From Chloroflexota bacterium (GTDB lineage Bacteria > Chloroflexota > Anaerolineae > Aggregatilineales > J027): a stretch of DNA of 35,360 nt. This document shows, one piece after another, positions 12,296 through 13,715 of the stretch. The notes under the pieces were generated by a model that saw nothing but the letters and a program-made list of their open reading frames with translations, had not been told where the DNA came from and ran no database searches. Made by a program: the position numbers and the translations under genes. The stretch lies in assembly GCA_003697365.1 (NCBI GenBank), contig RFGP01000204.1, positions 1 through 35,360 of the forward strand. The letters are read 5' to 3'. Position 1 is the first letter of the stretch. Every line of letters begins with the position of its first letter.

Positions 12296-12411
12296 AATGC
12301 TGCCCTATCTTATATTTTGCATATATCTATCCACTTTATAAATTCTAACCTTGTGCAGCTTAGCATTCAACCCTACGTAGACATTACATATGCCCATCAT
12401 CGAGTTTGGAC

Positions 12412-12440
12412 TTGTCAAGACTATCGCTTTAAGGTAATAT
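12412..12440 (+). promoter_or_regulatory. Sigma-70-type promoter of the rpsF operon
   Basis: A -35 box TTGTCA (12412-12417) and a -10 box TAATAT (12435-12440) are 17 bases apart. Transcription would begin near 12447, giving a leader of about 78 bases before rpsF. Confidence 0.7.
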
Positions 12441-12476
12441 GTTGCCGCTTTTGTACAGAATAATTTATCCTGAAAA

Positions 12477-12520
12477 CTTTCCGCCTGAATTTGACAGTCA
12501 GGCAAACCCGTGGGAAGGAG
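12477..12520 (+). promoter_or_regulatory. Leader hairpin of the rpsF operon, probable S6:S18 autoregulatory RNA
   Basis: The leader folds into an outer 6-bp stem (CTTTCC 12477-12482 with GGGAAG 12512-12517, one G-U) stacked directly on an inner 6-bp stem (GCCTGA 12483-12488 with TCAGGC 12498-12503). All unpaired bases are on the 3' side: a bulge AAACCCGT (12504-12511). The outer stem takes in the first half of the AAGGAG ribosome binding site (12515-12520). A bulged stem with an exposed C-C-G on one side, upstream of rpsF, is as I recall the published S6:S18 binding motif, by which the two ribosomal proteins repress their own operon. The fold is seen in the sequence; the regulation is inferred from the family. 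Confidence 0.7.
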
Positions 12521-12524
12521 ATAT

Positions 12525-12815
12525 ATGACCCGCAATTACGAAATCACCTACATTATGCCTGTAAACCTTCATGATGAAGAGCAAAAGGCAACCGAAGCTC
12601 GTGTTATTGAGTGGATCACCTCTGCTGGTGGCACTATCAAAACCTCAAGTCACTGGGGCCGTCGTCGGCTAGCCTATCCAATTGGTACAAACCGCGAAGG
12701 ATATTATGTCTTTTTGCAAGCCGAAATGCCGCCCTCTGCACTCAAAGATTTTGAGCGCCGTATGCAAATTGATACGAACATTATTCGCCATCTCGTTGTA
12801 CGTATTGATGAATAA
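12525..12815 (+). CDS. rpsF: 30S ribosomal protein S6
   Basis: This is S6 of the 30S subunit platform, where it pairs with S18. The 96-residue length and the sequence (N-Y-E-I-T-Y-I-M-P at the start, then H-W-G-R-R-R-L-A-Y-P-I and G-Y-Y-V-F-L-Q-A in the middle) are typical. AAGGAG at 12515-12520 decides the ATG at 12525; a GTG in frame at 12510 would place the ribosome binding site inside the gene and add five residues foreign to S6. It is the first gene of rpsF-ssb-rpsR and has its own promoter and a folded leader. Confidence 0.97.
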   Translation: MTRNYEITYIMPVNLHDEEQKATEARVIEWITSAGGTIKTSSHWGRRRLAYPIGTNREGYYVFLQAEMPPSALKDFERRMQIDTNIIRHLVVRIDE

Positions 12816-12874: not shown

Positions 12875-13273
12875 ATGGGACGCGGATTAAACAAAGTAAT
12901 GATCATTGGTAACTTAGGACGCGATCCAGAATTACGTTATACGCCAAGTGGTCGTCCTGTTGCCAGCTTCAACGTTGCAACAACGCGAACATGGGTAACG
13001 TTAGATGGTGAACGCCGCGAAGAAACTGAATGGTTTAATATCGTAGCGTGGGGGCCTCTTGCTGAAATTTGTAGCCAACATTTAACTAAAGGTCAACAAG
13101 TGTATATTGAGGGTCGCTTGCAAACTCGTGGTTGGGAAGATGAAGCTGGCCGCCGCCATTATCGAACAGAGGTGGTAGCGCAAGAAATGATCATCTTAGG
13201 TGACCGTCAAAGTTCGCATTTTGCACAACCATCACATTATGATGATGATGGGAACGATGACCTTATATTTTAA
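12875..13273 (+). CDS. ssb: Single-stranded DNA-binding protein
   Basis: This is a 132-residue SSB that coats single-stranded DNA in replication and repair and recruits partners through its acidic tip. The OB-fold runs from about residue 5 to 112 (K-V-M-I-I-G-N-L-G-R-D-P-E-L-R-Y-T-P-S-G near the start, then E-W-F-N-I-V-A-W-G). The C-terminal tail is short and ends D-D-D-G-N-D-D-L-I-F, a close variant of the usual D-D-D-I-P-F tip with the terminal F kept. The linker between OB-fold and tip is short (about 15 residues) compared with 40 or more in E. coli. No strong ribosome binding site precedes the ATG. Its place between rpsF and rpsR is the common bacterial order. Confidence 0.97.
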   Translation: MGRGLNKVMIIGNLGRDPELRYTPSGRPVASFNVATTRTWVTLDGERREETEWFNIVAWGPLAEICSQHLTKGQQVYIEGRLQTRGWEDEAGRRHYRTEVVAQEMIILGDRQSSHFAQPSHYDDDGNDDLIF

Positions 13274-13313
13274 CTTGTCATAAACTCATAGCATGAGAAG
13301 GATATACAATACT

Positions 13314-13715
13314 ATGAACAAAAAAAATACCCATGACATCGATGAACTCGATGATGAAGAATTAGAAGACCTCGACGACGAAGAACTTGAAGATGTTGAA
13401 GATGAAGAGCTCGACGATGAAGAAGAAGTCACGAGTTCAAAACCAACAAGTTCGCGGTTTAGTCGACGATCCGGATCAGTAGCACGTGGTCGACGACGTA
13501 AGCGTGGCTGCCCATTTAAAGTAGATGGCAAGTGTGTTATTGACTATAAAGACGTAGAAACCTTGCAAATGTATATCACAGATACAGGTAAAATTCGCCC
13601 TCGTCGTCAGACAGGTGCTTGCTCCAAGTGTCAACGTCAATTAGCTCGCGCCATCAAACGCGCCCGCTATCTAGCCTTATTGCCCTATGTACCTGAGCAT
13701 ATCCGCCAAAAGTAA
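13314..13715 (+). CDS. rpsR: 30S ribosomal protein S18 with acidic N-terminal extension
   Basis: The C-terminal part (about 62-133) is a normal S18: R-R-R-K-R-G-C, Y-K-D-V, L-x3[14 protein letters not shown] and the helix with [11 protein letters not shown]. Four cysteines (C66, C74, C103, C106) suggest a zinc-binding (C+) S18. In front is an unusual tail: of residues 8-38, 24 are D or E, the rest only I, L or V, in repeats of the form D-D-E-E-L-E-D, followed by a basic Ser/Arg linker. The total of 133 residues compares with 70-80 for most S18. GAGAAGGA 11 bases upstream supports the ATG at 13314; the in-frame ATG at 13293 would bury that site. The frame is intact, so the tail is translated. 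Confidence 0.95.

Follow-up and report, generated by a model that had tools for sequence, protein, structure and literature searches.

The primary descriptions of an rpsF leader that binds the ribosomal proteins S6 and S18 are reportedly those of Matelska 2013 and Fu 2014. In E. coli, the S6:S18 complex represses the translation of rpsF through a leader whose outer stem holds the Shine-Dalgarno sequence and which also has an inner hairpin and a bulge containing a conserved pair of cytosines, as set out by Babina et al. (2015, PMC4647458). The same paper reports that altering the bulge cytosines abolishes regulation, that residues K60 and R63 of S18 contact C719 and C720 of 16S rRNA and are required for full repression, and that the same leader could act by other mechanisms in other phyla. 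The rpsF leader of B. subtilis binds S6:S18 in vitro (Fu et al. 2014, as relayed in PMC4647458 and PMC10931766), and the review PMC10931766 describes the S6:S18 leader motif as spread across many phyla. Among the papers listed by a literature search on rpsF with Chloroflexi and ribosomal leaders, none dealt with the rpsF leader of Chloroflexota.

We analyzed a 35,360-nucleotide stretch of DNA (here called the window; contig RFGP01000204.1) from a Chloroflexota bacterium and noted a leader directly before rpsF, at positions 12477-12520 of the + strand. We consider it probable (roughly 0.88) that this leader is a cis-regulatory mRNA element of rpsF-ssb-rpsR and is of the S6:S18-binding kind that has been described in E. 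coli and B. subtilis. It reads CTTTCC-GCCTGA-ATTTGACAG-TCAGGC-AAACCCGT-GGGAAG-GAG, and its features are collected in Table 1. The outer stem (P1) is made of six pairs, one of them U-G. The inner stem (P2) pairs 12483-12488 with 12498-12503 around a loop of nine bases (12489-12497), and all of the unpaired bases outside this loop are on the 3' side, with CCG at 12508-12510. The 3' arm of P1 ends in the AAG of AAGGAG, 7 bases before the ATG start codon of rpsF. The initial annotation, made from the sequence of the window alone, had drawn this same bulged stem of two 6-bp stems with 3' unpaired bases and a CCG, and it was exact to the base; the pairing of the AAG by the outer stem, which it also claimed, was confirmed in the sequence.

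Table 1. Features of the rpsF leader and of the genes that follow it (window coordinates)
Feature	Position	Strand	Evidence or remark
Possible sigma-70-type promoter, TTGTCA - 17 nt - TAATAT	12412..12440	+	9/12 consensus matches; predicted
P1 outer stem, 5' arm CUUUCC	12477..12482	+	Sequence, fold; exact arm (CTTTCC) in 52/55 leaders of the order
P2 inner stem and loop, GCCUGA - 9-nt loop - UCAGGC	12483..12503	+	Sequence, fold, compensating changes
3'-side bulge AAACCCGU (AAACCCGT)	12504..12511	+	C12508-C12509, counterpart of the cytosine pair contacted by S18
P1 outer stem, 3' arm GGGAAG, overlapping the Shine-Dalgarno sequence	12512..12517	+	Sequence, fold, alignment of leaders
Shine-Dalgarno sequence AAGGAG	12515..12520	+	Read from the sequence
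rpsF, ribosomal protein S6, 96 aa	12525..12815	+	PF01250, E 4.8e-27
ssb, single-strand DNA-binding protein	12875..13273	+	PF00436, E 2.6e-39
rpsR, ribosomal protein S18, 133 aa from ATG 13314	13314..13715	+	PF01084, E 2.7e-24

The leader is followed by the gene order rpsF-ssb-rpsR, so that rpsF stands in an operon with rpsR, and the same arrangement is seen in relatives. The S6 and S18 genes were each found in one copy in the genome. For rpsR we took the ATG at 13314, which has AAGGA upstream; the mechanically called open reading frame begins at 13293. The three genes presumably share one transcript. If the promoter in Table 1 holds, transcription would start near 12447, and the region contains two promoter-like sites versus the 1.3 expected in shuffles, a count that is weak alone. 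One could also picture the leader as a transcription attenuator before rpsF, in which the hairpin competes with a terminator; Babina et al. (2015, PMC4647458), by allowing other mechanisms for the same leader in other phyla, give this some room. However, no terminator-like site was found in 12300-12560, and the 3' end of the outer arm falls within the Shine-Dalgarno sequence, just short of the start codon. We regard attenuation as very unlikely.

Folded alone, 12477-12520 adopts exactly the two-stem structure, at -12.9 kcal/mol. This energy is within chance (z -1.23; 24/200 shuffles are as good), as is that of a longer stretch (z -0.64), and such ordinary values are what a chance fold without function would give. 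That explanation is refuted by the comparative evidence: the match to a held-out model, the plan shared by every leader compared, and covariation. We leave it next to no weight.

The comparison covered 61 genomes, namely that of the window and 60 others from its order. An S6 gene was found in 55 of them (the six without a match are G003, G024, G026, G034, G043, and G051), and in all 55 the leader stands directly before S6 with the same plan. The same fold is possible throughout, as the initial annotation had expected of relatives. A covariance model was built from the aligned leaders of 46 genomes belonging to other families of the order, with the nine leaders of the window's own family excluded on purpose. 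When run against the window's 3.12-Mb genome, this model returned a single match at E <= 10. The match was 12477-12520 on the + strand, with 40.8 bits and E 3.7e-6, and so gave the same coordinates as the initial annotation.

Among the 46 leaders, standard pairs fill 93.2% of the cells versus 83.3% in shuffles, double-sided changes occupy 69 cells versus 18.7, and covariation scores 0.340 versus 0.160. None of 500 shuffles attained any of these three values, and all of them drop when the pairing partner is shifted by 1 to 3 columns. Two further counts were not unusual in this set: the number of doubly changed pairs was attained by 152/500 shuffles and the number of pair types by 133/500. The compensating changes predicted for relatives' leaders are present, in five of the seven P2 pairs, and all five doubly changed pairs belong to the inner stem. 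In the window's family, all cells of the nine leaders pair and 5/6 P2 pairs are doubly changed, which 0/500 shuffles attain. Outside the order, 29 leaders (28 distinct) show double changes in six inner pairs and one outer pair, in an alignment that was fitted to the model and hence leans toward it. The P2 covariation score was reached by 0/500 shuffles in each of the three sets (46 of the order, 9 of the family, and 28 distinct elsewhere in the phylum). P1 can form its six pairs in 52 of the 55 leaders and is nearly invariant, so that hardly any covariation can come from it; the 3' arm, which doubles as the ribosome binding site, would be conserved in any case. Judged by its conservation, namely the held-out model match and the covariation of the inner stem, the leader is more than a product of chance.

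The bulge is conserved at two positions in particular: its fifth base is C in 54 of the 55 leaders, and its sixth is C in all 55. The third base (12510 in the window) is G in 32/55 and A in 23/55; the window has CCG, the form described as conserved in S6:S18 leaders. This G/A alternation amounts to a straightforward natural experiment on the importance of individual bulge contacts. In five leaders (L040, L042, L043, L044, and L047), the inner hairpin is very short and the bulge starts with U, UACUCCGA or UGCUCCGA. Separately, an extra hairpin lies directly 5' of P1 in 10 of the 55 leaders (L005, L009, L012, L039, L040, L045, L046, L049, L054, and L055), each with no more than 2/50 shuffles folding as well. 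We did not retain an upstream hairpin as part of the element, as in the window 48/50 shuffles fold as well as the native sequence.

The behavior of P1 in longer RNA was assessed from pair probabilities, which are values of an energy model without protein. In the window, the P1 pair probability is 0.51 when only the 3-base remainder of the Shine-Dalgarno sequence is kept downstream. It falls to 0.04 once flanks of 30 nt upstream and 20 nt downstream are included, and to 0.01 when the downstream flank is at least 40 nt long. P1 is a minority fold in context because 12510-12514 pairs instead with 12529-12533, inside rpsF. P2 holds at 0.78-1.0 across every context tried. Among the 55 leaders, P1 exceeds 0.5 in 42 when no flanks are included, but in only 12 to 18 when they are. 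The claim that the stem hides the ribosome binding site thus stands in part: the AAG is paired in the fold taken alone, whereas in context P1 forms with a probability of only 0.01-0.04. These modeled values suggest that the Shine-Dalgarno sequence would be closed by protein binding, without prior closure in the free mRNA, and the ribosome binding site is probably hidden only when protein is bound. The competing pairing corresponds to a hairpin between GUGGG and CCCGC in the S6 gene (window 12510-12533), which places the Shine-Dalgarno sequence and the start codon in its loop and excludes P1. This 12510-12514/12529-12533 hairpin was considered as a conserved switch and set aside by eye; the closest relative, L026, lacks the matching bases.

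The openness of the free leader also bears on a simpler role, that of a conserved translation initiation element (a ribosome-positioning or standby hairpin, or an RNA thermometer) which does not bind S6:S18. Such an element would be in keeping with an outer 3' arm that doubles as the Shine-Dalgarno sequence, with a nearly invariant outer stem, and with a free fold in which the window's Shine-Dalgarno sequence is largely open. It leaves unexplained, however, why the unpaired CC of the bulge is almost invariant, why the leader is restricted to rpsF, with one match in the genome, and why its plan matches that of the E. coli S6:S18 leader, in which the CC is needed for repression. We hold this alternative to be improbable, if less so than attenuation, and retain S6:S18 binding as the preferred reading.

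Autoregulation by S6:S18 is supported by homology and anatomy, with binding predicted. In S18 of the window, K115, R116, and R118 correspond to the contact residues K60, R61, and R63 of E. coli, within the motif AIKRAR, and the S6 loop is RRLAYP here versus RQLAYP in E. coli. The architecture, the operon, the inner-stem compensation, and these residues all fit the likeness to the S6:S18 motif, in position and form, that the initial annotation had drawn. No 16S rRNA of the organism itself was found in the assembly for comparison with the bulge.

An acidic tail on S18 had also been proposed as part of the regulatory complex. The window's S18 does carry an extension, with 24 D/E and 10 K/R among 62 residues (counted from ATG 13314), but it is N-terminal and its acidity is not conserved. 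All 51 loci in which S18 was found encode an N-terminal extension, 14 to 75 residues long (4/55 loci were left out, having no S18 in the stretch examined); the start codons used here are approximate, as a simple rule assigned them. Most extensions mix acidic and basic residues. The window's extension has the most acidic residues of the set, whereas that of L026, a relative from the same genus, is net basic, with 5 acidic residues against 9 basic ones. On account of this relative, we rejected the acidic extension as a defining part of the regulatory complex; the extension belongs to S18 in this lineage rather than to the leader. In the window's family, S18 also contains a spaced cysteine pair (CPFKVDGKC, with a later CSKC, in window 13314-13715), which is possibly a zinc site. 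The pattern C-6to9-C was seen in 9/51 S18 loci of the order, which are exactly the nine of the family (L001, L011, L018, L019, L020, L024, L026, L027, and L048).

With the location, fold, and conservation of the leader, its inner-stem covariation, the conserved contact residues, and the single-copy genes established here, the following circuit is predicted. When S6 and S18 are in excess over free rRNA, the S6:S18 heterodimer would bind the bulged hairpin. K115, R116, and R118 of S18 would hold C12508-C12509, which would imitate C719-C720 of 16S rRNA. Binding would stabilize P1, which pairs the AAG of AAGGAG, and ribosome loading on rpsF would drop. Through the shared transcript, the output of S18 would be expected to fall too, with ssb and rpsR repressed together with rpsF.

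The distribution of the leader was examined in two further samples. In a sample of 400 genomes from the phylum, the model matched 78 at E <= 0.01 under strict filters. In the best 30 of these 78, the window's genome included, S6 lies downstream in 30/30, within 40 bases in 28 and at about 150 bases in two. Among 80 named S6 loci, 48 had a match at E <= 0.1, and all 48 matches are upstream of S6, at a distance of within 33 bases in 47 and of 148 in one; these loci are mostly Chloroflexota by record title. With this model (R1) at E <= 0.1, no match was obtained in the loci titled Ignavibacteria, Kapaibacterium, or Chlorobiota. Throughout the order, and in other classes of the phylum too, the model locates the putative leader upstream of S6.

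The published RNA family gave a different result. A covariance search with the published S6:S18 model had been suggested as a check, and Rfam RF02893 returned no match to the window leader at E <= 10, the gathering score (37 bits) not being reached. The E. coli leader, used as a positive control, scored 110.1 bits. At the gathering threshold, RF02893 matched 0/13 Chloroflexota loci scanned, and Rfam scans of the window and its relatives matched no leader family. Conversely, the new 46-leader model found no match to the E. coli leader at E <= 10. The likeness to the tested leaders therefore rests on a shared plan and not on a profile score, and we file the leader under the broad S6:S18 kind and not under RF02893. 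It is possible, though doubtful, that the Chloroflexota leaders form a distinct S6:S18 subclass beyond Rfam, which would be marked by an 8-base bulge, a near-fixed outer stem, G or A as the third base, a Shine-Dalgarno sequence that stays open in the free mRNA, and closure of P1 induced by the ligand. The leader itself is a genuine but ordinary example of a known hairpin kind, unrecognized here by the public RNA-family library. With it, a known autoregulatory circuit probably reaches into a largely uncultured lineage, supported down to single bases. The curated model misses it; a model trained on Chloroflexota would annotate many genomes.

Among the closest known systems is the leader of E. 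coli (RF02893). Both leaders precede an rpsF gene that shares its operon with rpsR. In both, two stems are stacked, every bulge base falls on the 3' side, a conserved CC (CCGU in the window) stands next to the 3' arm of the outer stem, and the outer stem overlaps the Shine-Dalgarno sequence; the contact residues of S18 are also shared. The end of the bulge beside the outer arm is AAUCCGU in E. coli (Rfam alignment) and AACCCGU here. The inner stem has six pairs in each, whereas the outer stem has seven pairs in E. coli and six here, and the bulge has 12 bases in E. coli and 8 here. Unlike in E. coli, only the AAG of AAGGAG is paired, and ssb takes the place of priB. The presence of ssb within the rpsF-rpsR operon is shared with B. 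subtilis and other Firmicutes, a likeness drawn from the operon and from the binding reported there. By description, the leader also resembles a candidate leader of Chlorobi that precedes rpsF, ssbA, and rpsR and is assigned to S6:S18 by Eckert et al. (2020, PMC7247131).
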